25,952 nt of DNA, from positions 1 through 25,952 of IMG/VR virus record IMGVR_UViG_3300022933_000021; one strand, given 5' to 3'. Positions 4,697 through 24,882 of this stretch are shown in pieces; positions within the stretch are counted from its first letter, which is position 1; every line of letters begins with the position of its first letter. The position numbers and the translations under genes are program-made. The stretch comes from a virus. The notes under the pieces were generated by a model. That model saw nothing but the letters and a program-made list of their open reading frames with translations, was not told the origin of the DNA and ran no database searches.

Positions 4697-5352
4697 TATT
4701 TATTCTCCTGATCTTTGTTAAGTTCTGCTAGTTTTTCAACTAATGTAAGAGGTTTTGCACTTGCTTTATCAATCTCTGCTTCACCGTCTATACCTTCTTC
4801 TGTAAAACCTGCTTCTTTCTTAGCAGCCTTTTGAATCTCATCTTTGTTAGCATGTAATTCATCGAATGCTTTGATAATAGCTTCACGCTCTGTAACTTCC
4901 ACACTTTGCAATGCTTTAGTAATTCCTTCTACTTCTGAGAACTCATACTTAGATAGGCTTTCAGTTAAACTCTTAGTTAGCTGCTCTGTTTGATTATCTT
5001 CAATCTGCTTAGTGAGTGCTGCGATAGTATCTAATGCCTTTTGCAAGTCATCTTTTTCTTTATCTGACATTTCGTTTCCTTTTGTCAAGTTATCTTCCCC
5101 TGCATCACTCTTGACAGAGGAGAGGGAGTTGGTATCACCCTTCTGCTTTTGCAGAGGAGTAAATTCTTCGCCATACTTTTCTAATAGGGCTGTTTGTTCT
5201 GGGGTTAAATCTTCTTTACATGTTAATCTATTCTTTACTAGAATAGTCTCCATGCCTGATGCTGCAAAACCTTGAGATTCATCTGTCATTGATATTTCAG
5301 ATATATCCAGACTATGCAAAACTGCCTTTGCTTTACCGTTTGAATCACTCAT
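4696..5352 (-). CDS. Scaffold-like protein, 218 residues
   Basis: An acidic, lysine- and glutamate-rich, helical protein between the protease-like gene and the decoration gene, which is where scaffolding proteins are encoded. Residues 95-165 form a probable coiled coil (DKEKDDLQKALDTIAALTKQ onward) with few aromatic residues. The first 70 residues contain EISMTDESQGFAASGMETIL, reminiscent of the ends of XkdF-type protease proteins, so it may be the second half of a protease-scaffold module. It overlaps the upstream gene by eight bases. An internal ATG at 5070 with a strong SD suggests that a shorter scaffold form (124 residues) is also made. No family was recognised with certainty. Confidence 0.6.
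   Translation of the reverse strand: MSDSNGKAKAVLHSLDISEISMTDESQGFAASGMETILVKNRLTCKEDLTPEQTALLEKYGEEFTPLQKQKGDTNSLSSVKSDAGEDNLTKGNEMSDKEKDDLQKALDTIAALTKQIEDNQTEQLTKSLTESLSKYEFSEVEGITKALQSVEVTEREAIIKAFDELHANKDEIQKAAKKEAGFTEEGIDGEAEIDKASAKPLTLVEKLAELNKDQENK
5068..5081 (-). promoter_or_regulatory. Internal ribosome binding site and in-frame start inside the scaffold gene
   Basis: On the minus strand AAGGAAACGAA is followed directly by ATG (5070-5068) in the frame of the 218-residue gene. The spacing is near ideal and the SD is as good as those of separate genes here. Starting there gives a 124-residue protein consisting of the coiled-coil half, analogous to nested scaffold genes such as lambda Nu3 within C. 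Seen in sequence: the SD and the Met. Inferred: its use. Confidence 0.5.
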
Positions 5353-6097
5353 CTTCTAACTCCACTTTAATACCTTTTGCTCCAAAAGAAGGTGCGCCTA
5401 ATATACCCGCTTTCTTATCTTCCCAAGCAATCTTGTTATTCCATTTAGCAGAGATAAGAGGTGTTCCTGCTTTAACAAAAGTCTCACCTAATGTAGCATC
5501 AACCTCTTGCACCCAAGCTCTTTGCCAAGTGAAAGTATCTGTCTTATGTCCGTGGAATAAACCAGCCTGTAATTCACCTTTATCTATCTTCTGATTGATG
5601 TCGTCTACAGCTTTTCTTATTTCTTCTAAGGAGATTGTGTCTCCATGTAAATCAACTTCCCCAGCAGGTCGCCAGATAGGTTCTACAGAGATCATCTGCT
5701 CATCATCAAAAGCTTTGATAACTTCTTTCTTAGTGAAGTATTTATCTAGCCAAGTAAATAAACTCTTCTCTGTCATTTCAGTCGGAGTTTCTGGTAATAG
5801 TTTCCACTCTGTCATCTGTACAGTTTTAATTGCTTCTTCGCCTAGTACAACTTCACCATTGTCTGTGTTGTATGTATAAGCTACCGCCCATTGCATGTAT
5901 TTGTTAGATTCACAACCCCAGATAGAGAAGTATATATAACTATCATCGTGGTCTTCGTAATAGGCATATTCTCTACAACCCCCTACTTCAAAAGCTGAAT
6001 CAATAGCATCTCTAAGTTGCCTGACTTTATCTTGATTAGTATTCTTCTGTAGATAAGTCTCGTTGGGCTTAACTAACAGTTCTTTAAGTTTTATCAT
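5345..6097 (-). CDS. XkdF-like prohead protease
   Basis: A 250-residue protein with an XkdF-type putative serine protease domain in its C-terminal half. It contains EPIWRPAGEVDLHGDTISLE followed by an EIRKAVDDIN helix, then GLFHGHKT (His candidate), a strand with QRAWVQEVDATLG, and a C-terminal GAPSFGAKG strand, as in XkdF and related prohead proteases. These enzymes cleave scaffold and capsid N-termini during head maturation. The N-terminal 110 residues form a separate beta-rich region with EYAYYEDHDDSYIYFSIWG. The gene lies between portal and scaffold, the standard place. Catalytic residues cannot be assigned firmly by eye; the His in GHKT is the best candidate. Confidence 0.7.
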   Translation of the reverse strand: MIKLKELLVKPNETYLQKNTNQDKVRQLRDAIDSAFEVGGCREYAYYEDHDDSYIYFSIWGCESNKYMQWAVAYTYNTDNGEVVLGEEAIKTVQMTEWKLLPETPTEMTEKSLFTWLDKYFTKKEVIKAFDDEQMISVEPIWRPAGEVDLHGDTISLEEIRKAVDDINQKIDKGELQAGLFHGHKTDTFTWQRAWVQEVDATLGETFVKAGTPLISAKWNNKIAWEDKKAGILGAPSFGAKGIKVELEDE

Positions 6098-10568: not shown

Positions 10569-13500
10569 TTAACTGTACCCCGTATGTTCAGATAATATAG
10601 TTGGTGTGTTAGTAGCATCTAGTGGTGTTATTCTTCTTAACTCTGTAGTACCGTCAGCACTTCTTAGAGATATGAAATAAGCATCCTTTTGTAATACCCT
10701 AGTCACTCCGTCTTGCCCAAAGTAATAAGTTGGATTATTATGATTAGCTATAATCTCTGATACGCTTTCCTGTACATCTAATATTGTGCTATTATCTGGG
10801 GCAGTGTAATTAGAATTAAGTAAAGCATTATCTGTGCCTCTCATGTTAGTTACCGTTGTTACTGTAGCAACTACATCACTGGCAGGATTGAAATCATTTA
10901 ATGCTTGAATCTCAGCACTTGTTGCTAATCCATCTTGTATCTCTACAACAGTAGGAGAACTCACTGTAAGTGTTCTAGTGGCGTTATTCCATATATCTGA
11001 TACTAGACTAGTAAAAGAAGATAACGTCCTTGTAGTGTAATCCCACACGTCCTGTGCTGTAAGAGTAGAACGACTACTAATTGTAGCATCCAAGTTATCT
11101 AATCTCACATCGTCAGATGCTAAAGGTGTTGGCAGATTATCTACACTGGTTTGTGTAGCTCTGCTAGACACTGCTACATCTAAATACTGATCTACTAATA
11201 TCTTAATATCTGTTATCTGTTCAGAATTAGCATTATAAAGTCTATCATTTGGAACCCATCTTATAGTTTCTGAATCTTCTGCTATAATAGACTCCCCTTC
11301 AAAATGAGTCCAAATACCATTTACAATAGTTAATCTAGAACCTATTTTACTATTCTTTATTTTTAATCTTCCTTGGAGTTCAATATTATATTCATCGGGG
11401 TTATAAACCAACCCTAGTGCATCATATATCAAAGCACCCTGTGCAGTGGTGTTAACCCATCTCCACCAAGCAATACCTCTGCGACAATCAAATATATCAT
11501 TATCATCATTAATATTAACTTCTACATCTGTAAGATTAGCTGTAAGTTCTCCTCCATTAGAGCTGTCTACTAGACTACCATCTAAGCCTACTACACCATC
11601 AAAGATCATATTGTTATGAATGATATCATCTACTTGCGAGTCAATAAGTGTTATACCACTTTCAGTCATTACAGCAAATATTCTTAATGGTAACTTAGCC
11701 AGTACACCTGATTGCCAGTTAGCTTTTATTAGAATAACATCCCCAAGTTGTGTCACTTCACTGCCACCTACTCTGACCTCTATATCATAGCCATTACCAC
11801 CTGACACTACACTGTTGTCTATTAAGGCTGGATTTATAATAATATCTTCCAATAAAGTAGAACGTGTGTAGTTGATTACTACGACTCTAGTCCCATCTAT
11901 TAAGTTTGGAATTGTAATAGGTAATAAGGGTGCAGGTTCACTCCATATGTAAGTAGAATCAAATGGGCATTGTATTTCTATGCCCTCAATATAACCATCC
12001 TTTAAAGGGAGGGAGTTTTTAGTCACTCTAACTTTTAAAAACCACTCAGTTTCAAAAGTATATCCAGTCTGAGAATTTTGTAAATTAACCAAGGTTAAGT
12101 CTGAATAAGTAGAAGGTTCAGTTTCAGATATAAGCCATACTTTATATTCTACAGAGAAGTTCCATGTATTATTACCAGTAATGTTTACAGCAGTAGCAAT
12201 ACCTACGCCTTTTTGTACATTACTTTGTTGCTCTGATACTGTGTTTGGTATGTAATAAGCCTTTGTTCCATTGAATACAACTTCCCCTGTACTTGCTAAG
12301 TAAGGTTGTACCCATATACTTCCCTGATCTCCAGTGGAGTTGGTAATAATTTCACTGGATGTTGAACCTTTGCCTAACTTAGGAGTATTACCTATCATAC
12401 TTACAAAGTGGTAATCTGTATTAGATTGTGTCTGATTGCCATGATCGGTGTCATTAAGCATTTTTATGTTACTAAATCTCCAACCACGTTGGGCAAAAGT
12501 ATTATAATCCCTAGAACCTCTAGAGCTTGTACCGTTGTTTATAACCCTATTTATAGAGCCTCTGCTATCTCCACCTAAGTTAAATATTTCATAAAAGTCT
12601 GCATCAATAGGGAATATAATGTCCTGAGAATCACTGCCTATATTGACTTCTCCAGAGTTTGCCAATATAAAATGTCTGGTCTGGTCAGGCCAAGGCTCTG
12701 TTCCTATACGTTCAAAACCTGTTATAGCACCCTTGATATCTCCATTTCTTAGATATATACCTGCGTATAAGCCTCCATCTGTCCTTTTATAACCAGTGCT
12801 ATATTTTATATAGGTAGAACCTCCAACCCCTCCTTTAAACTCAAAGGCGTATTTATTACCTCCTAAGTCTATGACAACTGCATCACCGCCGTTATTATAC
12901 AGGCTAGTAAATGCGAATGATTGTTTTGAAGAGGGTTGTGTAAGATATCTAGCTTCTATAGTTCCATTTAAAGGCCTATAAGCATTAGCAACTCTTTCAG
13001 ATATAGGTGTTGCTTCTATGGAATAGATAATATGATCTGTTCCTGTAGTTTCCCCTAAGGTGATTCTTCTATTGTTAGTACCTGTTAGTACAAATACTGC
13101 ATTTGCATGGGAGTTTTTAACTAAACGAGATGTTACATAATTGCCATTGTGGTTGACTATACCCCAGTAGGAGTCTTGTGTTAATTCTATACTATGATCA
13201 AAGGAGAACTTAGGTTTATTAAAGACTACTCCTCCTGTACCTATTAAAACTCCTTCATTTAGGAAAATATCGTTGTTATTCATCTCTACATATAGGTTAG
13301 GTATCTGTATAGATCCTACAGGAGTTTTGCCATTTGTATTATCTCCTACTGTAATAACACCTGTGGTATTATCATATAAGAAATGTAATCCTCTTTCATC
13401 TGCATACATATTAGATAAAGATTCACACTCTGTGTAGCAGTCTCCATTATTAATAAAGAAACCTATATGTGACGGTCTATCTCCATTTGAATCTACTGGG

Positions 13501-13778
13501 ACTACAAAAGGAGAGGTTAACGATATAAAACCAGAGTCTAACTCTATAGTACCTTGAGAAGCGTTTATATCTCCTGTCATATTCAGGATTACTATACCCG
13601 AAGTAGAACTATTACTTAGTTTTAATCTCTGTAATGAACTATTACACCACAAAGTAGATATGTCTAGGCTAGATTCATCTATAGTCAGAGTGGCAGAGCC
13701 TCCCAAATCTAGGGAATCCCCTGCCGAATATGTAATATTCGATAGGTTGGAGTCTGAACTGATGTTTATATTAGCCAT
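10569..13778 (-). CDS. Large fibre/beta-helix-like virion protein
   Basis: A 1069-residue protein with the composition of a phage fibre or spike: Ser/Thr/Asn/Gly-rich, almost no Cys, many short beta strands. Residues 1-450 look like right-handed beta-helix coils (repeated 'xIxGxxxxN' turns). Middle segments (about 470-760) look like separate beta domains. The C-terminal 200 residues hold two copies of a 'DxWxxxTRTL' motif (DVWDYTTRTL, DIWNNATRTL) preceded by 'SSRxT' turns, a repeat seen in various phage structural proteins. It lies upstream of the terminase, away from the tail genes, so a head fibre is as likely as a receptor-binding tail protein. SD AAGGAT lies upstream of ATG 13778. Confidence 0.65.
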   Translation of the reverse strand: MANINISSDSNLSNITYSAGDSLDLGGSATLTIDESSLDISTLWCNSSLQRLKLSNSSTSGIVILNMTGDINASQGTIELDSGFISLTSPFVVPVDSNGDRPSHIGFFINNGDCYTECESLSNMYADERGLHFLYDNTTGVITVGDNTNGKTPVGSIQIPNLYVEMNNNDIFLNEGVLIGTGGVVFNKPKFSFDHSIELTQDSYWGIVNHNGNYVTSRLVKNSHANAVFVLTGTNNRRITLGETTGTDHIIYSIEATPISERVANAYRPLNGTIEARYLTQPSSKQSFAFTSLYNNGGDAVVIDLGGNKYAFEFKGGVGGSTYIKYSTGYKRTDGGLYAGIYLRNGDIKGAITGFERIGTEPWPDQTRHFILANSGEVNIGSDSQDIIFPIDADFYEIFNLGGDSRGSINRVINNGTSSRGSRDYNTFAQRGWRFSNIKMLNDTDHGNQTQSNTDYHFVSMIGNTPKLGKGSTSSEIITNSTGDQGSIWVQPYLASTGEVVFNGTKAYYIPNTVSEQQSNVQKGVGIATAVNITGNNTWNFSVEYKVWLISETEPSTYSDLTLVNLQNSQTGYTFETEWFLKVRVTKNSLPLKDGYIEGIEIQCPFDSTYIWSEPAPLLPITIPNLIDGTRVVVINYTRSTLLEDIIINPALIDNSVVSGGNGYDIEVRVGGSEVTQLGDVILIKANWQSGVLAKLPLRIFAVMTESGITLIDSQVDDIIHNNMIFDGVVGLDGSLVDSSNGGELTANLTDVEVNINDDNDIFDCRRGIAWWRWVNTTAQGALIYDALGLVYNPDEYNIELQGRLKIKNSKIGSRLTIVNGIWTHFEGESIIAEDSETIRWVPNDRLYNANSEQITDIKILVDQYLDVAVSSRATQTSVDNLPTPLASDDVRLDNLDATISSRSTLTAQDVWDYTTRTLSSFTSLVSDIWNNATRTLTVSSPTVVEIQDGLATSAEIQALNDFNPASDVVATVTTVTNMRGTDNALLNSNYTAPDNSTILDVQESVSEIIANHNNPTYYFGQDGVTRVLQKDAYFISLRSADGTTELRRITPLDATNTPTILSEHTGYS

Positions 13779-15013: not shown

Positions 15014-15090
15014 GTTCTCATAGCTCAATCGGATAGAGCAATAGATTTCTAATCTATAGGTTGTAGGTTCAAATCCTACTGGGAACGCCA
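15014..15090 (+). tRNA. tRNA-Arg (TCT)
   Basis: Acceptor GTTCTCA pairs with TGGGAAC (one G-T pair), D stem GCTC/GAGC, anticodon stem ATAGA/TCTAT with loop TTTCTAA (anticodon TCT), T stem GTAGG/CCTAC with loop TTCAAAT, and GCCA at the end. It lies six bases after the previous tRNA. It reads AGA, a codon common in this phage (frequent AGA in nrdA and nrdB). Confidence 0.95.
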
Positions 15091-15507
15091 CATTAGAAGG
15101 TAAAGCCTCTCATAGAAGCTCAAATATAGATGGGATAACCCATATCGCCTAGTAGACGTATTAGGAGTCCTTCAATTATTGACCAGTGTTAGTAATCTTA
15201 TTAATTAGAATTATAAGGTAAAAGCCAGAGTCCTTGCCCCCACCTCTTCCTTACATTGGGACGTAAGATACGTGAGAAGATATACTAGATAAGGTTTATC
15301 AGTTCCTTATGTTCTAGTTAGGCTATCAATAATACTGAATACAGCTTACCACCTGTCGGGTAAGAAAGAGATTAATGTTATATCATGTCCCACATGGTTG
15401 ATATATGGCAGGGTTATTAATAAATATAACTACCTTGGCTAGTCGAGGTTAAATAATACCAGTGATTAGGCTCGTATATCACAGGGGTAGTTATATTTAT
15501 TAATAAT
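15091..15507 (+). ncRNA. Hairpin-rich noncoding region, candidate structured RNA (5' part)
   Basis: There is no credible gene in these roughly 415 bases, but inverted repeats are dense: 15130-15134/15139-15143, 15148-15151/15162-15165, 15250-15254/15263-15267, 15285-15294/15305-15317 (two 5-bp stems), 15345-15350/15359-15364, 15379-15385/15399-15405, and a 21-bp perfect repeat 15414-15434/15486-15506. It lies between tRNA genes in a phage, where large ornate RNAs such as GOLLD and ROOL are known to occur. Assignment to either is a guess; a covariance search would decide. Confidence 0.35.
15414..15506. repeat. 21-bp perfect inverted repeat enclosing 51 bases
   Basis: Bases 15414-15434 (starting TTATTAATAA, ending ACTACC) are exactly the reverse complement of 15486-15506. 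The 51 bases between contain a smaller hairpin with GTGAT/ATCAC arms. The right arm ends one base before the tRNA-Trp-like gene. It is either the strongest stem of a structured RNA or a small MITE-like element inserted beside the tRNA. Confidence 0.85.
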
Positions 15508-15589
15508 GTCTCAGTAGCTCAATTGGTAGAGCGTTGGTCTCCAAAACCAAAACCAAAGGTTGTAGGTTCGATCCCTACCTGATTCGCCA
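15508..15589 (+). tRNA. tRNA-Trp-like gene (CCA) with an enlarged variable arm
   Basis: D stem GCTC/GAGC, anticodon stem TTGGT/ACCAA with loop CTCCAAA (anticodon CCA), T stem GTAGG/CCTAC with loop TTCGATC, and GCCA at the 3' end. The acceptor pair GTCTCAG/CTGATTC has two mismatches (second and third pairs). The variable region is 11 bases (AACCAAAGGTT) instead of about five and could itself form an AACC/GGTT stem. An apparent tandem duplication of six bases (AAACCA) explains it. It may be a functional variant or a decaying gene. Confidence 0.7.
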
Positions 15590-15980
15590 TATTAAAGCGG
15601 TTTTTGATGCAGTGTGTTACCGCTATATAAACAAAAATGACCACTCAGTAATGAGCATAAACTAGAACACAAACTAAACCCATGCGCTAACCCACCCCTG
15701 TTATCATGGTGAGAGGAGCTGTATCAGGTATGGTACAGATCTATACGATACTACTAAGGGATTATCATTGCAGTAAGTAATACACTGTATATATTTTAAA
15801 TATAACTTGATAATCGCGCCAAACCTTGGTATTATACTTACATATTACTTGATATAGATGTTTATATTAGTGAGTATATTCAATATAATTATAGAGAGCC
15901 TACGAAGTGCCGTAGTAGTATAAGAAAGTTTGATTGGTTTAAGCTGATTAATCTTATCACATACTCCTCTCTATAATGGG
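15590..15980 (+). ncRNA. Hairpin-rich noncoding region, candidate structured RNA (3' part)
   Basis: There is no credible gene in about 390 bases. Paired segments include AGCGGT/ACCGCT near 15596-15631, CTCA/TGAG near 15646, GATTATCA 15760-15767 with TGATAATC 15808-15815 (enclosing a CAGT/ACTG hairpin and an AT-rich palindrome, giving a three-way junction), and an 11-bp perfect repeat ATTATAGAGAG 15888-15898 with its complement 15967-15977, enclosing a CTACG/CGTAG hairpin. Such multi-branched pairing suggests a folded RNA. The transcript ends are unknown and no family is assigned. Confidence 0.35.
15807..15835 (+). promoter_or_regulatory. Possible rightward promoter
   Basis: TTGATA (15807-15812), a 17-base spacer and TATTAT (15830-15835), about 190 bases before the gene at 16028. 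Its -35 box coincides with one arm of the 8-bp inverted repeat, so this stretch could instead be purely RNA structure. Confidence 0.45.
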
Positions 15981-16027
15981 GTAGTTGTAACTAAAATTTG
16001 AATACAGTTGAATAAGAGGTAAATACA

Positions 16028-16426
16028 ATGAGTAATAGAAACTTTAAACGTGCGTTCCACAACCCTCTCGAACTGATAACTCAATGGTGGCCTGGTACTG
16101 ATATAAGCCATATACACTACGACCCTGATATGAAGTCTAGTGAGAGGGATTACTGGCGTGTAGGTCAATCAGGAGGGGATGGGACTATGGCATTCACTAT
16201 GCAGATGTTACAAGAAGTTTTACTACCATTGCTTAATAAAGAATCTTATTATAATCAAGTACCTGAAGAAGACATTAAAAGAGCAGTGGATATTGAATAT
16301 ACTATTGGGAATATATGGCACTCGACAGTGTACGGGATGATTTATTTAAAGTGTAGTAAAGACCATAAGTACCACGGACAAAAAGAAAGAGTAAGAATAC
16401 CTGTGAAATGTACGTTATTATATTAA
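16028..16426 (+). CDS. Phage protein of unknown function, 132 residues
   Basis: A 132-residue protein rich in Trp, His and Tyr (NPLELITQWWPGTDISHIHY; RDYWRVGQSGGDGTMAFTMQ). The middle region is helical and the C-terminus is basic. SD AAGAGG lies ahead of the ATG. No membrane segment or known motif is visible. It is the first protein gene after the tRNA/RNA region and is followed by a consensus promoter eight bases after its stop. Confidence 0.6.
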   Translation: MSNRNFKRAFHNPLELITQWWPGTDISHIHYDPDMKSSERDYWRVGQSGGDGTMAFTMQMLQEVLLPLLNKESYYNQVPEEDIKRAVDIEYTIGNIWHSTVYGMIYLKCSKDHKYHGQKERVRIPVKCTLLY

Positions 16427-16723: not shown

Positions 16724-16786
16724 ATGCTACAACAATTAAATGATACAATAGGCTCACATAAAGTGTTTGATTATGTTAAGGTGTAG
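16724..16786 (+). CDS. 20-codon reading frame with very strong SD, possibly a truncated gene
   Basis: MLQQLNDTIGSHKVFDYVKV then stop. The SD (AGGAGGGT) is among the strongest in the window and properly spaced, yet the frame is only 20 codons and ends exactly where the first attC-like repeat begins (16787). It may be a leader peptide, or the stub of a phage gene cut by the arrival of the cassette array. Which one cannot be told without a relative lacking the array. Confidence 0.35.
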   Translation: MLQQLNDTIGSHKVFDYVKV

Positions 16787-16823
16787 GATAACCACAACCT
16801 TCGATTTGAAAGCGGTTGTTATG
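16787..16823 (+). repeat. Short attC-like hairpin at the left edge of the cassette array
   Basis: GATAAC (16787-16792) and GTTATG (16818-16823) are R''-like and R'-like boxes, with AACC/GGTT and TTC/GAA arms between them separated by an unpaired AGC. At 37 bases it is shorter than known attC sites, so it may be a reduced attC, a target site, or an unrelated hairpin. Its GTTATG is the left boundary of the first cassette if the array is real. Confidence 0.4.
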
Positions 16824-16847
16824 ATCTATTAATTAAGGAGAATATGT

Positions 16848-17036
16848 ATGTTTGATTCACTAAAAAGTTTAACTAAGGCAACGATAGGTGTAGCGATTGA
16901 GACACCGTTAGCTGTAGCTGCTGATTTTGTCACACTAGGTGGCTCTATAACAGAAAGGGATGAGCCTTACACTACTACAGCAATCAAGAAAGTAGTAAAA
17001 AACGTAAGCGATTCTACTGAAAGCGATGAATCATAA
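16848..17036 (+). CDS. Cassette 1 protein, 62 residues, phage-type small protein
   Basis: A 62-residue protein: an amphipathic N-terminus (MFDSLKSLTKATIGVAIETP), a small-residue hydrophobic stretch (LAVAADFVTLGG), then a polar Ser/Asp-rich tail. It resembles a group of unnamed small proteins common in proteobacterial phages and plasmids ('..AVAADVVTLGG..'); that is recollection, not a search. SD AAGGAG is seven bases before the ATG. The TAA stop lies inside the R'' box of the attC site at 17032, the arrangement seen in integron cassettes. Confidence 0.65.
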   Translation: MFDSLKSLTKATIGVAIETPLAVAADFVTLGGSITERDEPYTTTAIKKVVKNVSDSTESDES

Positions 17037-17089
17037 CCCTTTAAATAACGGGCGCAGCTTTTCGCGTCCCTGTTTATTTTGTTGTTATG
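17032..17089 (+). repeat. attC-like recombination site A
   Basis: R''-type box CATAAC (17032-17037) and R'-type box GTTATG (17084-17089). Between them AAATAA/TTATTT outer arms and GGG-CGC pairing with GCG-CCC form an imperfect hairpin in which T17067 is unpaired on one side only. This box order and one-sided unpaired bases are what integron integrases recognise in folded attC strands. Length is 58 bases. It separates cassette 1 from the methyltransferase cassette. Confidence 0.75.
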
Positions 17090-17115
17090 TTGCACTTACA
17101 CAAGAGGAAAGATTA

Positions 17116-17841
17116 ATGCACTACGATGAACAAAGAGAAAAAGAATTATTAAAGCCTTGGTTGATGCAAGGCGATTGCCTTGAGAAGATGAAAGAAATTC
17201 CAAGCGGTAGCGTTGATATGATATTAACTGACCCGCCTTATGAGCTATCAAAAAGCAAAGGTGGTGGCATGATGGGTAAAGGTGGGTGAAAGTTCATGCA
17301 AGAAGTTAAAGAGCAAGGAATGATTGACGGCATAGAAACAGGATCATTTTTAAATGCTTGTTTATCATTGTTTGATCATAAACAAGCATTTTGTGCAGTG
17401 GTTACTTGTTCAACAAAGCAAATTATTGAATATATAACATGGGCTGAAAATAACGGCTTTCAATATGGCGTAGGTGTTTGGCACAAATCAAACCCAGTGC
17501 CACTATGTAACTTCAAGTATCTAAATGATGTGGAGTATTGGATTTATATAAAAGGAAATAAATCTAAAATACTTGGCGACTACCATAGTAAAAGCATGGT
17601 TTATAAGTCACAAATAAACAAGAAAGATAAAAAACTATACGGTCACGCCACTTGTAAGCCTGTCGAGTTAATGGAGAAATTCATAATAAACCATTCAACA
17701 GAACAGCAGATTATTGTTGATCCATTTATGGGGAGCGGGACAACTGGTGTAGCATGTAAAAACCTACACCGTAGCTTTATTGGGATTGAGTTAGACGAAG
17801 AATATTTTAAGATTGCACAGGATCGGATAAGTGCAACATAA
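17116..17841 (+). pseudogene. DNA methyltransferase interrupted by one in-frame TGA
   Basis: A site-specific DNA methyltransferase (N6-adenine or N4-cytosine, beta-type order). The catalytic DPPY motif is at residues 39-42 and the AdoMet-binding motif DPFMGSGT at 202-209, with NxxxPVEL-like helper sequence (GHATCKPVELMEKF) between. Codon 58 (17287-17289) is TGA, where the context GKGG-stop-KFMQEV suggests an original TGG (Trp). No base is gained or lost, and the frame continues to TAA at 17839. The start at 17116 has SD AGAGGAAAG. The stop lies in the next R'' box. It is probably inactive unless read through; other genes here use TGA as stop, so recoding is unlikely. Methyltransferases are common integron cargo. 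Confidence 0.8.
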
Positions 17842-17929: not shown

Positions 17930-18136
17930 ATGGATACGAAGATTAAAACTTTATTAATTGCAGCGTTAAATGTAGCGGATGGGAGATATGGCGATGTTGA
18001 TACAGAGGATGGTAGTTTTGCAACAACTTCTGTTGAAAATATGATTGCGCTGGAAGAGGCGTTTTGTGATGCGTTTAATACTAATTCTGACGATGTTATT
18101 GCAAGCGAGATAATGCCGAAGATAGCGGAGTTATAA
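17930..18136 (+). CDS. Cassette 3 protein, 68 residues, acidic, unknown
   Basis: A 68-residue acidic protein (MDTKIKTLLIAALNVADGRY...) with two helical segments around a Ser/Thr/Asp-rich turn. No motif recognised. SD GAGGAT is about eight bases before the ATG, which lies 18 bases after the R' box of site B. The TAA stop lies inside the R'' box of site C. Size, spacing and lack of recognisable function are typical for integron cassette genes. Confidence 0.65.
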   Translation: MDTKIKTLLIAALNVADGRYGDVDTEDGSFATTSVENMIALEEAFCDAFNTNSDDVIASEIMPKIAEL

Positions 18137-18196
18137 CCCATACATAAATTGAGAATGGAGCGAAGCGGAATGAGTCAAATTGATGATGTTGTTATG
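18132..18196 (+). repeat. attC-like recombination site C
   Basis: R''-type TATAAC (18132-18137) and R'-type GTTATG (18191-18196). AATTGA (18147-18152) pairs with TCAAATT (18175-18181) with one unpaired A. The purine-rich centre (GAATGGAGCGAAGCGGAATG) does not pair and would be a large terminal loop. Length 65 bases. The ATG at 18194 of the DUF551 gene is the last three bases of the R' box. Confidence 0.6.
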
Positions 18197-18388
18197 TGTG
18201 AATGGGTCGATGTTAATGAACAATTACCAAAGGACGCTGAACCCGTAATAGTACAAGGCGGTTGCGGCCACTACAGTCACAAATATAAGCAGTGGTTTAC
18301 AAATATGGAACGTGACAACTTCGGCGAGTATCGGGCTATCCAGTGGGAAGTCACCCACTGGATGCCTATCCCGAAATTAAACACATAA
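18194..18388 (+). CDS. DUF551 family protein (cassette 4)
   Basis: A 64-residue protein starting MCEWVDVNEQLPKDAEPVIV and ending WEVTHWMPIPKLNT. The 'W..v.e.LP....' opening and 'VTHWMP.P' ending are the hallmark of DUF551, a small family common in phages and also found on mobile cassettes; its function is not known. The start at 18194 is preferred to an in-frame ATG at 18149 because the family begins near here and the upstream codons would lie inside the attC site. The stop TAA sits in another R''-like CATAAC (18384-18389). Confidence 0.7.
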   Translation: MCEWVDVNEQLPKDAEPVIVQGGCGHYSHKYKQWFTNMERDNFGEYRAIQWEVTHWMPIPKLNT

Positions 18389-18647: not shown

Positions 18648-18947
18648 ATGAAATTGAAAGATAACACAGAAGCTGAATTTGGAGATATAATACGTTGGAA
18701 TTGTTGGGATAATGATGACTTCGTTACGTGGAATATGACAGGGATGTACACTAGGCAAGGTGTTATATATTTAGGAGGAGGGATTGACTTCGGCTTAGGT
18801 ATAGGGCAGATATTGGAAGTGGAAGAAGTTATAGAGGAATCAGAGAATAATGACCCTGATGATTGTGGAATAGTTAAAGTGGGTGTTGCGACAGACTTGG
18901 TTAGATATATTAATAAATATGAGATGAAAAAGGAGAGTGAAGATTAA
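18648..18947 (+). CDS. Small acidic phage protein, 99 residues, unknown
   Basis: A 99-residue protein with a beta-rich, Trp/Gly-containing front half (EFGDIIRWNCWDNDDFVTWN; GVIYLGGGIDFGLGIGQILE) and an acidic C-terminus. SD AGAGGGG lies upstream of the ATG. It overlaps nrdA by 11 bases, and the SD of nrdA lies within its last codons, so nrdA translation is probably coupled to it. No family recognised. Confidence 0.55.
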   Translation: MKLKDNTEAEFGDIIRWNCWDNDDFVTWNMTGMYTRQGVIYLGGGIDFGLGIGQILEVEEVIEESENNDPDDCGIVKVGVATDLVRYINKYEMKKESED

Positions 18948-21771
18948 AAATAGAGTAGAAGATTATTTAGGTATTACTATAGATTATAACAGAGATGCTT
19001 TGTTAAAAGAAAAAGCTAAGAAGATGTTAACAACAAAGGGTTTTTATAAGAGGTCAAATGAAGACAGCCCTCAGCAAACTTTAGCAAGAGGGTCTACATG
19101 TTATTCCTTTGGAGATTATGAGTTTGCACAGAGGATTTATGAGTATTCATCAAAAGGTTATTTTACATTTGCATCTCCTGTATTGTCTACAGCTATGGAA
19201 GTGGATTGGCCTACTTTCAATAAAGATGAGTTTGAAGTTGCAGGAGATTGGCTGGAAGAGAATGTAACGCCAGAGGGATTACCAATTAGTTGTTTCTTAT
19301 CTCATATCCCAGATAATAAAGTGGGACTTGTAGAAGGCCGTAAGGAGACAGCATGGCTTAGTATGATGGGAGGTGGTATTGGTATAGGAATGAATAATAG
19401 AAGCCCTGATGAGAAGTCTACAGGGGTTATGGCACACCTAAGAGGTTATGATGCAGATGCCCTAGCATATAAACAAACTTCTAGCCGACGAGGAAGCATT
19501 GCAGCGTACTTAGATATAGACCACCCTGAGATTAAGAATTTTATTAGTTGTCGTAACCCTGTAGGCGGGGATTCTAATAAAAAATGTTTTAACTTGAATA
19601 ATGCTGTATGTATCACTGACTCTTTTATGGAGAAAGTTATAAAAGGTGAGAAGTATGAGCTTGTAGATCCTAAACATGGTGCAACTGGTACTTTTCTTGA
19701 TGCTAGAGAAGTCATGGAAGATATAAACCAGCAACGTTATGAAACTGGTGAACCTTATATAATGTTTAAAGATACGGTTAATAGGGGTATCCCTAAATGG
19801 ATTACTAAACCTACTTACCATGTATCGCAGAGTAATTTGTGTGTCGCACCTGATACTTTTATACTCACGGATAAAGGACATATCCAAATAGGTGACTTAG
19901 AAAATGAAACCGTTAATGTGTGGAATGGGGAGCAGTTCTCAGAGACTACGGTAATTAAAACATCTGAAAGTAGCAGTCTATTTAGGGTAGGTTTAAACTC
20001 TGGTCAAGAGTTGGATTGTACAGAATATCATAAGTTTTATGTACAAGAAGACTACGGGAAAGACCCTGTAATGAAATCTTACAACGAGCTAAAAATAGGG
20101 GATAAATTAATTAAATCTAAATTCCCTGTAATACAAGGAGATAAATTTTTAACTAACGCCTACCAGAATGGTTTTTATACTGGAGATGGTTGTGAAGTAA
20201 AAGGGAAATCCCGTGTGTACTTCTATGGAGAGAAGAAGGAACTAGAGGCTTGGTTTGATTTAGAACAAAGAGTAGACCAACCTCAGTACGACAGGGTTTA
20301 TGGCAATTGTTCTGGACTAATGCCTAAATTCTTTGTACCCTCCAGTGAGTATAGTGTAGACATAAGACTTACATGGTTGGCTGGATTACTAGACGCTGAT
20401 GGTACTGTAGCTAGGAATGGAGATAATGAATCACTACAACTGGCATCTATAAATAAAGACTTCCTGCTAGAAGTCCAACTTATGTTACAAACACTGGGTG
20501 TTAATTCTAAAGTATGTTTTGCCCGTAAAGAAGGTAAGTATTTACTGCCAGCTAATGATGGCACTGGAGGACTTAAAGAATATAATTGCTCTGAAACTAA
20601 TAGATTATTAATAAGCTCTACAGGCCTTTATCAGTTAACTTCACTAGGTTTAGACTGTGTTAGGTTAAAATGGGAGAATAAAAAGCCACAAAGATGTGCA
20701 GAGCAATTTTCTAAAGTGATATTTTTACAGGATTTAGAAACAAAATCTTCTACATACTGCTTTAAAGAAGAACTTAGAGGTATGGGTATTTTTAACGGTA
20801 TCCTTACAGGTCAGTGTTCAGAGATAACACTAATGACATCTGAGAAAAGAACTGCTGTATGTTGTTTATCTAGTCTTAACTTAGATAAATATGACGAATG
20901 GAAAGATACAACTATAGTAGAAGATTTAGTCAGATTATTAGATAATGTATTAGAATATTTTATACGTCTAGCACCAAAAGAATTATATAGAGCTGTACAT
21001 TCTGCTAGCCAAGAAAGAGCTATAGGGTTAGGCAACTTAGGCTTTCATTCATTCTTACAGAGAAAGAACATACCATTCGAGTCTGGTGGTTTTAATAGTG
21101 CATCGCAGTGGGCGCATATATTAACGTCTACCATACAAGAAAGAGCTATTGCATCTTCTAAAGTATTAGCTGAAGAACGGGGAGAGCCAGAAGATTGTAT
21201 TGGTTCTGGAATGAGGAATAGCCACCTTACAGCAACAGCCCCAAATGCTTCAAGTAGTGATTTCGTTGGTGTCAGTCCTAGTATAGAGCCTTGGAGTTCT
21301 AATGCTATAAATACTGAAGGTAGGGCTGGAAGTTACCTCATTAAGAATCCACATTTAGAAGATGTATTAGAGAAGTTAGGATTAAATACAGATGAGATGT
21401 GGGATAGTATTATAAAGAATAATGGCTCTGTACAACACAGAGATGACTTATCAGGTGAGATTAAAAAAGTATATAAAACTGCATCTGAGATAGATCCAAT
21501 GTGGGTGGTAGAGTTAGCAGCTTTAAGGCAACCTAATATTTGCCAAGCACAATCATTAAATATTTTTGTTACAGCTAATATTACAAAAGAAAAGATGATG
21601 GATGTAGTAATTGCTGCTTGGAAAAAAGGTGTAAAGACGTTATACTATTGTAGAGCTGAACAAGCATCTAAGACAAACATAGGTAAAGGAGATAAAGCAC
21701 CATTAAACTCAATACCTGTAGAAAGTACATTCAAGGTGGACATAGAAGAGTGTCTTTCCTGTCATGGTTAA
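18937..21771 (+). CDS. nrdA: Ribonucleoside-diphosphate reductase alpha subunit (class Ia) with intein
   Basis: The 944-residue precursor contains a 325-residue intein (302-626); the spliced enzyme would be 619 residues. It reduces ribonucleoside diphosphates to deoxy forms together with NrdB. Visible active-site parts are Cys119 (PISCF, redox partner), Asn300-Leu301 then Cys627-Ser-Glu629 (NLCSE after splicing, the thiyl Cys motif), Cys642/643 (second redox Cys), the YYCR radical-transfer tyrosines near residue 905, and the C-terminal CLSC pair (939, 942). There is no N-terminal ATP cone, so allosteric control is reduced, as in other short phage enzymes. Start: GTG at 18937 is only one base from AGGAG; an in-frame ATT two codons later has ideal spacing, so the true start is uncertain. 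Confidence 0.93.
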   Translation: MKIKNRVEDYLGITIDYNRDALLKEKAKKMLTTKGFYKRSNEDSPQQTLARGSTCYSFGDYEFAQRIYEYSSKGYFTFASPVLSTAMEVDWPTFNKDEFEVAGDWLEENVTPEGLPISCFLSHIPDNKVGLVEGRKETAWLSMMGGGIGIGMNNRSPDEKSTGVMAHLRGYDADALAYKQTSSRRGSIAAYLDIDHPEIKNFISCRNPVGGDSNKKCFNLNNAVCITDSFMEKVIKGEKYELVDPKHGATGTFLDAREVMEDINQQRYETGEPYIMFKDTVNRGIPKWITKPTYHVSQSNLCVAPDTFILTDKGHIQIGDLENETVNVWNGEQFSETTVIKTSESSSLFRVGLNSGQELDCTEYHKFYVQEDYGKDPVMKSYNELKIGDKLIKSKFPVIQGDKFLTNAYQNGFYTGDGCEVKGKSRVYFYGEKKELEAWFDLEQRVDQPQYDRVYGNCSGLMPKFFVPSSEYSVDIRLTWLAGLLDADGTVARNGDNESLQLASINKDFLLEVQLMLQTLGVNSKVCFARKEGKYLLPANDGTGGLKEYNCSETNRLLISSTGLYQLTSLGLDCVRLKWENKKPQRCAEQFSKVIFLQDLETKSSTYCFKEELRGMGIFNGILTGQCSEITLMTSEKRTAVCCLSSLNLDKYDEWKDTTIVEDLVRLLDNVLEYFIRLAPKELYRAVHSASQERAIGLGNLGFHSFLQRKNIPFESGGFNSASQWAHILTSTIQERAIASSKVLAEERGEPEDCIGSGMRNSHLTATAPNASSSDFVGVSPSIEPWSSNAINTEGRAGSYLIKNPHLEDVLEKLGLNTDEMWDSIIKNNGSVQHRDDLSGEIKKVYKTASEIDPMWVVELAALRQPNICQAQSLNIFVTANITKEKMMDVVIAAWKKGVKTLYYCRAEQASKTNIGKGDKAPLNSIPVESTFKVDIEECLSCHG
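19840..20814 (+). mobile_element. Intein with LAGLIDADG homing endonuclease inside nrdA
   Basis: It starts at Cys302 (CVAPDTFILTDKG, splicing block A). Block B is LDCTEYH (Thr362, His365). The endonuclease motifs are NGFYTGDG (411-418) and LAGLLDADG (481-489). The C-terminal block is IFNGILTGQ directly before Cys627. The last two residues are Gly-Gln rather than the usual His-Asn; Gln-ending inteins have been described, including one in a viral ribonucleotide reductase (Chilo iridescent virus). The insertion point is immediately before the catalytic cysteine of the NLCSE motif, a highly conserved site typical for homing. Both endonuclease motifs keep their acidic residues, so it may still be active. 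Confidence 0.92.
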
Positions 21772-23245: not shown

Positions 23246-23441
23246 TGTAACACAATCAGAACAAATAGATGGTATAATCAAGACAACTACATTCTCTTCA
23301 TCAGCAGAGGAAGCCTCAAAGTTGCTTAATTTCATGGTAGCTTATGAGTGTGGGATGCACAGAAAATCCCTAACACCTGATGAAGAGTTTTGGTATAGAA
23401 ACTACATGGGTATTTCTAATCCCATAGAAGGAAATAAATAA
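23232..23441 (+). CDS. Small protein, unknown, 69 residues
   Basis: A 69-residue protein starting MGMISVTQSEQIDGIIKTTT. A helix follows (SAEEASKLLNFMVAYECG) and the C-terminus is polar. It begins inside the previous gene and its stop overlaps the endolysin ATG (TAATG). A role with the endolysin is only suggested by this coupling. No transmembrane segment is visible, so it is not an obvious holin. Confidence 0.55.
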   Translation: MGMISVTQSEQIDGIIKTTTFSSSAEEASKLLNFMVAYECGMHRKSLTPDEEFWYRNYMGISNPIEGNK

Positions 23442-23851
23442 TGTATAAATTAAGCAAACGTTCACTATCAAACTTAGAAGGTGTTCATCCAGACTTAGTA
23501 TCTGTAATTAAGCGTGCAATAGAAATATCTCCATTAGACTTCGGAGTTAGCGAAGGTGTACGTACAGTGGAACGCCAGAAAGAGTTAGTAGCCCAGGGCA
23601 AGTCTACTACAATGAATAGTAAGCACATACCTAGAAGTTTTAAAGATACTGGGGAGGAGTATGGAGCTGCTGTAGATTTATTCGTATTAGTAAATGGTGA
23701 AGTATCTTGGGAGCATAAAGAGTTTAGGAAAGTTATACAAGCCGTATTCACTGCTGCTATAGAGCTAGGCGTTCAAGTGGAAGCTGGAGCATTATGGAGA
23801 ACATTCTTAGATTCTCCTCATATTCAATTAAATATGAAGTATTACGGATAA
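23441..23851 (+). CDS. Endolysin, M15-type L-Ala-D-Glu / D-Ala-D-Ala peptidase
   Basis: A 136-residue peptidoglycan peptidase. The segments SEGVRTVERQKELVAQGKST, SKHIPRS, AAVDLF and DSPHIQL hold the M15 zinc ligands: His in SKH, Asp in AVD and His in SPH, with a catalytic Glu expected near VEAGALW. The length and motif order fit T5-type and VanY-like phage lysins that cut the cell wall at lysis. There is no signal peptide, so a holin must release it; none is visible in the window. A promoter and attC site follow directly. Confidence 0.88.
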   Translation: MYKLSKRSLSNLEGVHPDLVSVIKRAIEISPLDFGVSEGVRTVERQKELVAQGKSTTMNSKHIPRSFKDTGEEYGAAVDLFVLVNGEVSWEHKEFRKVIQAVFTAAIELGVQVEAGALWRTFLDSPHIQLNMKYYG

Positions 23852-23866: not shown

Positions 23867-23895
23867 TTGACATAACCTGAACACTATGTTATTAT
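23867..23895 (+). promoter_or_regulatory. Sigma70-like promoter directly in front of attC site D
   Basis: TTGACA (23867-23872), a 17-base spacer and TATTAT (23890-23895), four bases before the R'' box of the attC site at 23899. It reads straight into the second cassette locus, as an integron Pc promoter would. Confidence 0.75.
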
Positions 23896-23898
23896 GTA

Positions 23899-23956
23899 TT
23901 TAACGTTGTAATTAGCGGCTGCGTTTTTCGCAGTCCGACTACATTACCTTGTTATG
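23899..23956 (+). repeat. attC-like recombination site D, best formed copy
   Basis: R''-type TTTAAC (23899-23904) and R'-type GTTATG (23951-23956). The arms GTAAT-TAG-CGG-CTGCG (23908-23923) pair fully with CGCAG-CCG-CTA-ATTAC (23929-23947), leaving T23934, A23938 and C23942 unpaired, all on the same arm, around a five-T loop. One-sided unpaired bases at regular spacing are the structural signature of integron attC sites. Length 58 bases. Confidence 0.85.
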
Positions 23957-23984
23957 TGAATGTTAATTAATAAAGGAAATAAAA

Positions 23985-24149
23985 ATGAATATTGAATATG
24001 TAAATAATAATTTCATAATTAGACCAAGCTCTGACCGTGAAGTAGAGAAATTAAAAGAGTTATTAGGTGTCACTATAGATGCAACTAATTTAACACCTTG
24101 TGGCAATGTTGGACTACATCGAGAAGACCAAAGCCTATATAAGGACTAG
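23985..24149 (+). CDS. Cassette protein, 54 residues, unknown
   Basis: MNIEYVNNNFIIRPSSDREV... ends HREDQSLYKD. A front beta strand, a helix (REVEKLKELLGVTI) and a polar tail. SD AAAGGA lies about eight bases before the ATG, which is 28 bases after the R' box of site D. It is the first gene behind the promoter at 23867. No family recognised. Its stop does not fall in an R'' box, unlike the first array. Confidence 0.55.
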   Translation: MNIEYVNNNFIIRPSSDREVEKLKELLGVTIDATNLTPCGNVGLHREDQSLYKD

Positions 24150-24210
24150 AAGCCCTTGTGATTACCCTTGTTATACTAGATTAAAATTAATTAAATAAAA
24201 GGTAAAGGTT

Positions 24211-24531
24211 ATGGACAAAAAAAGTGCAAGTAGTTTTATGGACACTGTAGATGAATTAGATCTTGTATCTAATACTATTAAAGAGTCAGCTAAGTCTTTA
24301 GTCTGGCTTAGTTTCTACGATGAGTCCGATGTGCTTAAAGAACTTAAAAAGTTGGGCTACAGTAGTTTCCCATCTGTCCACCAACTCTTGGATAGTAATG
24401 GAGGATTGGAAATCGCAGGAAGTACAATTACTGGTAAACTTACTGTAGGCAAGGCTAACCTCGCTAGTAAGGTTCTCGCCGCACTTAGGGCAAATGTCAG
24501 CACTATCGAGCCTACTTTGAAACTCGTCTAA
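24211..24531 (+). CDS. Rightward frame overlapping the zinc-ribbon gene, doubtful
   Basis: A 106-residue frame starting MDKKSASSFMDTVDELDLVS with a reasonable SD (AGGTAAAGG). The first 29 residues lie outside the opposing gene and look protein-like; the rest is antisense to the zinc-ribbon gene at 24298-24603. Either it is a genuine gene truncated by, or overlapping, that gene, or only its start remains. No motif recognised. Confidence 0.35.
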   Translation: MDKKSASSFMDTVDELDLVSNTIKESAKSLVWLSFYDESDVLKELKKLGYSSFPSVHQLLDSNGGLEIAGSTITGKLTVGKANLASKVLAALRANVSTIEPTLKLV

Positions 24532-24603
24532 TCTGGATGACATTTCATCGAATTTTTTAAACTTTGCTTCCATGTCTTTGAAGCGTTGCTCTATATTAGT
24601 CAT
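24298..24603 (-). CDS. Coiled-coil zinc-ribbon protein in reverse orientation
   Basis: A 101-residue protein with a charged coiled coil (residues 3-35; EQRFKDMEAKFKKFDEMSSR onward), then a zinc ribbon (CPKCGENL ... CTSCDF, residues about 38-65) and a C-terminal helix (ELVDRWETTVAQLFKFF). SD AAGGAATAAA precedes the ATG. It is read leftwards within the segment bounded by attC sites D and E, while its neighbours read rightwards. A DNA- or protein-binding role fits the ribbon but is inferred. The four ordered cysteines make this the more credible of the two overlapping frames. Confidence 0.65.
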   Translation of the reverse strand: MTNIEQRFKDMEAKFKKFDEMSSRLDEFQSRLDSADICPKCGENLTSEVSLAYSKFTSNCTSCDFQSSITIQELVDRWETTVAQLFKFFKHIGLIVETKPD

Positions 24604-24662
24604 AATTTTATTCCTTGAAATAGGGGTTAAATAGATTAAGCAAATATTAACATAGTAAAATT

Positions 24663-24688
24663 AAATACAATGATTATTTATTGTATTT
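24663..24688. repeat. 9-bp perfect palindromic repeat upstream of the zinc-ribbon gene
   Basis: AAATACAAT (24663-24671) and ATTGTATTT (24680-24688) with an 8-base loop, about 60-85 bases upstream of the leftward start at 24603 and just before attC site E. It could be an operator for the zinc-ribbon gene or an AT-rich terminator. Confidence 0.45.
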
Positions 24689-24692
24689 TGGG

Positions 24693-24750
24693 TATAACGA
24701 CCAAATAAGTGGCTACGCTTTTTGTAGTACACTTAATCTAATTTGTTATA
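24693..24750 (+). repeat. attC-like recombination site E
   Basis: R''-type TATAAC (24693-24698) and R'-type GTTATA (24745-24750). CAAAT/ATTTG outer arms, AAGTG (24707-24711) with CACTT (24730-24734) and CTAC (24713-24716) with GTAG (24724-24727); G24712 and T24728-A24729 form a small internal bulge. Length 58 bases. It closes the second cassette locus. Confidence 0.65.
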
Positions 24751-24774
24751 AATATTAATTAAATAAGGAATGTT

Positions 24775-24882
24775 ATGAACAATAAAGAAATATACAGTAT
24801 ACTCTTAGAGATTAAAACTAAGATGATAAATATACATAAACAATTAGAAGATAATAGGAAGATTAATGAGGGTGAGGTATGA
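24775..24882 (+). CDS. Small helical protein, 35 residues
   Basis: MNNKEIYSILLEIKTKMINI then HKQLEDNRKINEGEV, one long amphipathic helix, likely a coiled coil. It starts 24 bases after site E with SD AAGGAAT, and its stop overlaps the next start (ATGA). It could belong to a further cassette, but no attC follows in the next kilobase. Function unknown. Confidence 0.5.
   Translation: MNNKEIYSILLEIKTKMINIHKQLEDNRKINEGEV

Follow-up and report, generated by a model that had tools for sequence, protein, structure and literature searches.

A probable integrase-less attC cluster, antisense to phage transcription, in a PH101-like phage

Behind the endolysin gene of a phage fragment, a well-matched promoter runs straight into a near-perfect hairpin, a second hairpin follows further on, and a few small genes lie between the two: are these hairpins the attC sites of integron cassettes, in which direction do they read, and how may the genes between them have arrived? 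The window, by which we mean the whole stretch of DNA analyzed, has 25,952 bases and is the complete IMG/VR record IMGVR_UViG_3300022933_000021, itself a phage fragment, with terminase and portal genes on its minus strand and ribonucleotide reductase (RNR) and endolysin genes on its plus strand. The phage is of marine type and PH101-like: the named phage closest to it by terminase is Pseudoalteromonas phage PH101 (H101, NC_029094; 47.6%), and two sister phages from IMG/VR, L002 and L003, stand at 74–75% by terminase and 76–78% by endolysin. The reading that we favor, with a probability of roughly 0.8, is that the locus is an integrase-less phage attC cluster (a CALIN) in a PH101-like phage, lying antisense to phage transcription and moved by the integron integrase (IntI) of the host. 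The features on which the argument turns are the following.

23441–23851, plus strand: endolysin (M15-type peptidase), left flank (PHROG 465 endolysin, E=3.6e-55; 78% identical in L002, 76% in L003)
23867–23895, plus strand: sigma-70-like promoter, TTGACA-17-TATTAT, 11/12 match, TG before the -10 box, antisense to attC polarity
23898–23957, minus strand: attC D, with R'' at 23951–23957 (ACATAAC) and R' at 23898–23904 (GTTAAAT); attC of the predicted cassette
23904–24697, minus strand: predicted cassette, 794 nt between two R' cleavage points, placed by the G^TTRRRY cleavage rule together with D and E
23985–24149, plus strand: 54-aa ORF, beginning 27 nt after D, reversed in the cassette, with an AAAGGA ribosome site
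about 24145–24176, minus strand: truncated attC remnant between D and E, R'' at 24170–24176 (GTATAAC) plus the L'' half
24211–24531, plus strand: 106-aa ORF after the remnant, reversed, overlapping the minus-strand ORF; reality uncertain
24298–24603, minus strand: 101-aa ORF in canonical cassette orientation, with a CPKCG...CTSCDF zinc-ribbon-like motif
24663–24688, no strand: operator-like inverted repeat AAATACAAT-N8-ATTGTATTT, immediately within the E end of the cassette
24692–24751, minus strand: attC E, with R'' at 24745–24751 (TTATAAC) and R' at 24692–24698 (GTTATAC)
24775–24882, plus strand: 35-aa ORF from the ORF list, right flank
17031–17090, minus strand: attC of the first locus, 32.8 bits, E=7.5e-6, of the same polarity as D and E

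To score these sites, we used a covariance model drawn from 48 attC sites, none of them from the window phage or PH101; nearly all were taken from bacterial genomes, where they lie upstream of intI, which gave their orientation, and the remainder comprise one site of plasmid R100 and a few belonging to the integrons of two prophages. On this model, whose E-values are rough owing to a shortened calibration and a hand-drawn structure, attC D reaches 50.8 bits on the minus strand (E=3.2e-10) and its plus strand just 8.1 bits, in a stretched match. The preliminary description had called D an almost perfect fold with three one-sided unpaired bases and the best attC of the window, and both statements hold: the fold has -12.8 kcal/mol (z -4.6), none of 200 shuffles is as good, and its score compares with 32.8 bits for the site at 17031–17090 and 25.5 for E. 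D shows the full attC architecture, with R''/R' and L''/L' pairing, bottom-strand polarity and, at model positions 16, 20, and 24, extrahelical bases confined to one arm, the one that bears them in bacterial attCs. Site E, which had been said to close the locus, does so as an attC of 25.5 bits on the minus strand (E=4.5e-4), with no plus-strand match at E<=10; its fold is the weaker of the two, at -6.1 kcal/mol (z -1.7) with 15/200 shuffles doing as well, and it shows the box architecture in part, with one extrahelical base missing and one mismatch. E is more degenerate than D and is probably an older resident site. Both sites having scored as attCs, as the preliminary description had held they should, D and E are, judged by their sequence, true integron attC sites that enclose a short block of captured genes.

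Published phage attCs from outside the training set are also recovered by the model (PH101 36–40 bits, TJE1 13–33, MW202573 23–42), with that of P12002L scoring poorly at 14.5 bits; D is a near-ideal attC that scores above all of them. Beyond the sister pair, 22 phage records totaling about 1.36 Mb (18 other IMG/VR phages plus Barba1A, HM1, Vibrio 166E36-1, and Aeromonas 2L372X) gave no match at E<=1, but the first-look filter of the whole-record search missed one sister-phage site that a direct search found (27.0 bits), so that weak sites in these control records could have escaped. HM1, Vibrio 166E36-1, and Aeromonas 2L372X thus gave no attC match, and neither did L183, a relative of 72.5 kb with 52% terminase identity, which argues that attC presence is patchy and not general to these phages. 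When 11 phage attCs were aligned, both helices were paired in 76% of cells versus 31–48% with slid partners, a figure that leans toward D-like structure since the structure came from D, and two-sided changes occurred in 11 of 19 pairs, as expected of covarying arms. Searches with Rfam returned only tRNAs and nothing further for the locus; the core of D, taken as a DNA pattern, was absent from other IMG/VR contigs, and the phage-type attC signature was absent from 395 genomes of one bacterial order. Two further candidates in the window, at 18131–18197 and 16786–16824, were rejected by their covariance model scores.

The strand-specific scores overturn the plus-strand orientation that the preliminary description had assigned to the attCs and that a combined regular-expression and fold scan had also given, as the model scores these sites on the minus strand only. 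With this polarity, the recombinogenic bottom strand is the plus strand of the window, and the cassette of D occupies the interval from D to E; its limits would be the R' cuts of these two sites, with D as its attC. The strong sites of the window, of both sisters, and of PH101 share one polarity, antisense to the adjoining phage genes. The promoter at 23867–23895 is real enough as a match, and from its -10 box only 2 nt lead to the first base of D, which is the R' box. In PH101, a TTGACA-17-TAGTAT promoter lies 2 nt before the terminal attC, on the same side as in the window. At this offset, a promoter score as good is reached by 0.12% of positions for the window, counted over all positions in the window phage and three related sequences, and by 0.48% for PH101; in the sisters, the match is weaker (8/12, at 4 nt) and by itself not significant, and beside internal attCs no promoter match was found. 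In an integron, the Pc promoter reads through attI into the 5' end of the cassette ORFs. Here, the promoter meets R' and not R'', and therefore cannot be a Pc in the usual sense: the promoter that had been compared to a Pc exists, and the comparison fails, as it faces the R' end of D and reads the cassette antisense. An integron-like array with this promoter as Pc and cassettes in plus orientation, as first proposed, could draw on a real promoter with plus-strand ORFs downstream; with plus-strand attC scores at noise level and the promoter abutting the R' end, we find it scarcely credible.

What the putative cassette encodes is less clear-cut. The 101-aa minus-strand ORF is probably, not certainly, real: its DZR match is weak (E=0.008, below the cut-off), its codon score unremarkable (0.025), its AF2 pLDDT 64, and apart from one 31-residue match no relatives were found. 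Of the two reversed ORFs, the 54-aa one has a phage-like codon score (0.267) and no family was found for it, and the 106-aa one has a codon score of 0.19, an AF2 pLDDT of 42.5, and no relatives found. Small ORFs with a ribosome site begin about 20–60 nt past R'' in 4/4 phages (window, L002, L003, and PH101), and the sister cassettes carry a palindrome at the same place as the inverted repeat at 24663–24688. Nothing convincing by way of relatives of the cassette proteins appeared in IMG/VR, phages, plasmids, 369 gammaproteobacterial genomes, Pfam, PHROGs, or NCBIfam, which leaves a bacterial origin of the cassettes unsupported. The truncated attC, which over 56 nt has 78.6% identity with the attC plus leader of sister L003, shows that the block between D and E is composite.

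Under the published rule, a CALIN has at least two attC sites within 3 kb; D and E are about 0.73 kb apart, with an ORF-bearing cassette between them and no integrase in the record, which is a fragment. A search for intI (TIGR02249) gave no match anywhere in these 26 kb, and with no intI in this fragment and no Pc reading ORFs in attC orientation, the locus is not a complete integron. The PH101 attC cluster was found among virulent phages by Qi et al. 2023 (PMC9892861), where five of six tested attCs from PH101, TJE1, and P12002L recombined with IntI1. That cluster resembles the one described here in sitting in a related phage (RNR large subunit 63% over 296 aa, RNR small subunit 48%), near endolysin and RNR genes, with attCs antisense to phage genes, a promoter 2 nt from the terminal R' box, and small orphan ORFs. 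It differs in that the PH101 array lies between RNR beta and endolysin whereas that of the window comes after the endolysin, and in its four attCs, all fairly strong, and its other cargo; no endolysin homology was detected between the two phages. The CALINs of TJE1, P12002L, and MW202573 (PMC9892861) are likewise attC clusters without intI in phage genomes, with methyltransferase cassettes as in the window; these phages were not found as relatives of the window phage, and in gene direction TJE1 follows attC polarity whereas MW202573 runs against it. Attention may also be drawn to attG-mediated cassette insertion (Loot et al. 2024, as cited in PMC12901181), which likewise places a cassette outside the integron platform, and from which the window differs in that attCs flank the cassette and the target is seemingly a resident phage attC.

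The order promoter, hairpin, AT-rich leader, ribosome site, and ATG recurs in the window, L002, L003, and PH101, and some hairpins at the same position are poor as attCs (16786–16824, 9.5 bits). This would suit a regulatory stem-loop module, in which promoter, 5'-UTR hairpin, and ribosome site form a unit around which genes shuffle, the likeness to attC being convergent or co-opted. The PeSL elements of T4-type phages are such a case, with a promoter and then a stem-loop ahead of small genes and modular shuffling, and a promoter directly followed by a stem-loop is indeed found at the window locus. Unlike PeSLs, the hairpin of the window has attC box architecture and polarity. An mRNA hairpin needs no attC asymmetry (AACAA, GGAC/GCC, three extrahelical bases on one arm), which D, the site at 17031–17090, and the sites of L002, L003, and PH101 carry on one strand only, and internal attCs have no promoter; we hence regard a purely regulatory module as quite improbable.

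A further hairpin may be mentioned here. In L002, at about 5155–5220, a promoter-like sequence is followed by the hairpin CATAACAATTCC...GGATTGTTATG and TTAATTAAATAAG, attC-like in its outer boxes only, and the short hairpin at window positions 16786–16824 resembles it.

The sister phages allow the history of such loci to be approached. L002 and L003 are 93% identical over 3.4 kb including the RNR genes, and between RNR beta and endolysin they carry unrelated inserts with near-identical flanks, which is the different cargo in related phages that the preliminary description had advised looking for. Toward the promoter, their homology stops 2–3 nt beyond the R' cleavage point; at the opposite end, it restarts 25 nt before the resident attC, within a leader common to both cassettes, and the minus-strand ORFs of the two (133 and 72 aa) have a shared ribosome-site region ahead of each. 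In the L002 contig, moreover, two loci carry cassettes that are paralogs of each other (68.7% DNA identity over 702 nt, the whole unit; 53% in protein), the second locus lying upstream of RNR alpha, and this second locus and the first locus of the window border the same phage sequence, with ATAAC meeting ACTGTAAAACAAAGGATTC in G001 and ACTACAAAACAAAGGAATCC in the window. These paralogs and this common border speak for two ports at which cassettes were captured repeatedly or copied within the genome. The claims of two separate cassette loci in one phage (17031–17090 and D/E) and of repeated cassette capture are thereby supported, and the same genes without attCs in all related phages, which had been named as counterevidence, were not found; attC × attC exchange with the host, also proposed, may be involved. 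No empty site exactly at the D/E position was found in the sisters: both are without an attC after the endolysin, but they differ in gene content there.

The sister data suggest, from comparison of sequences, that these phages acquire and exchange gene cassettes of bacterial style by means of a recombinase that the host provides. The break in the 25-nt leader could, however, also come from homologous recombination. It is conceivable that the attCs are of old integron origin, that recombination by IntI has been lost, and that phages swap units by homologous recombination between similar attCs, leaders, and ribosome-site regions; the weakness of E (25.5 bits), the truncated attC inside the block, the leader as one border of the L002/L003 swap, and the near-identical attC and leader copies of PH101, where two such stretches stand ahead of two unrelated proteins, would all agree with such fossil cassettes. 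Nevertheless, D is near-ideal on the model, and the other border of the L002/L003 swap falls at the R' cut, and for these reasons we consider this alternative unlikely.

Two different PH101 cassettes (attCs at 5920–5977 and 7309–7385 of L169, which is PH101 70000–90000) share an identical 60-nt leader, and this leader has an inverted repeat beside the R' box.

If the locus is indeed a CALIN moved by host IntI, cassettes would enter as folded single-strand attC substrates on which the integron integrase of the host acts, the target being the R' box of an attC already resident beside the phage promoter, and would come to sit antisense to phage transcription. Insertion at the terminal R' box leaves the promoter outside, so that the attC of the newest cassette would lie directly under it. 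The canonical gene of the D cassette would be the minus-strand 101-aa ORF, and the promoter would then read through the hairpin into the reversed small ORFs at 23985–24149 and perhaps 24211–24531. That attCs occur in virulent phages and work with IntI1 in the laboratory is already known; what the comparative data newly suggest is that close phages exchange cassettes in nature, with one break falling where the integrase cuts, and that a single cassette type has settled twice in the same phage, at two loci. Should this be right, lytic phages would carry and use integron cassettes, and phage accessory regions would be linked to the pool of integron genes; the layout, antisense and facing the promoter, is a directly testable design. 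We may even speculate, although we hold it to be rather doubtful, that the PH101-like lineage has evolved a reverse integron platform, in which a promoter is fused to a resident R' box, host integrases insert antisense, and selection favors reversed genes; it would be a phage-owned port for cassette capture and expression without an integrase.

Some observations on the rest of the window may be added. At the first cassette locus, the DNA methyltransferase gene (17026–17841) has an in-frame TGA at 17287–17289, and the parts before and after it match DNA methyltransferase families; at the right end of the locus, a DUF551 protein (18170–18388) ends at a border, ATAAC meeting ACTACAAAAC, common to sister G001. 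The RNR large subunit (18937–21771) contains an intein with a LAGLIDADG endonuclease domain, the large subunit of PH101 being much shorter (1860 nt). A 1069-aa protein without a PHROG family is encoded in the structural region (10569–13778, minus strand), and at 15090–16030 a tRNA-Trp lies in about 0.9 kb of otherwise scant coding, beside tRNA-Met and tRNA-Arg.
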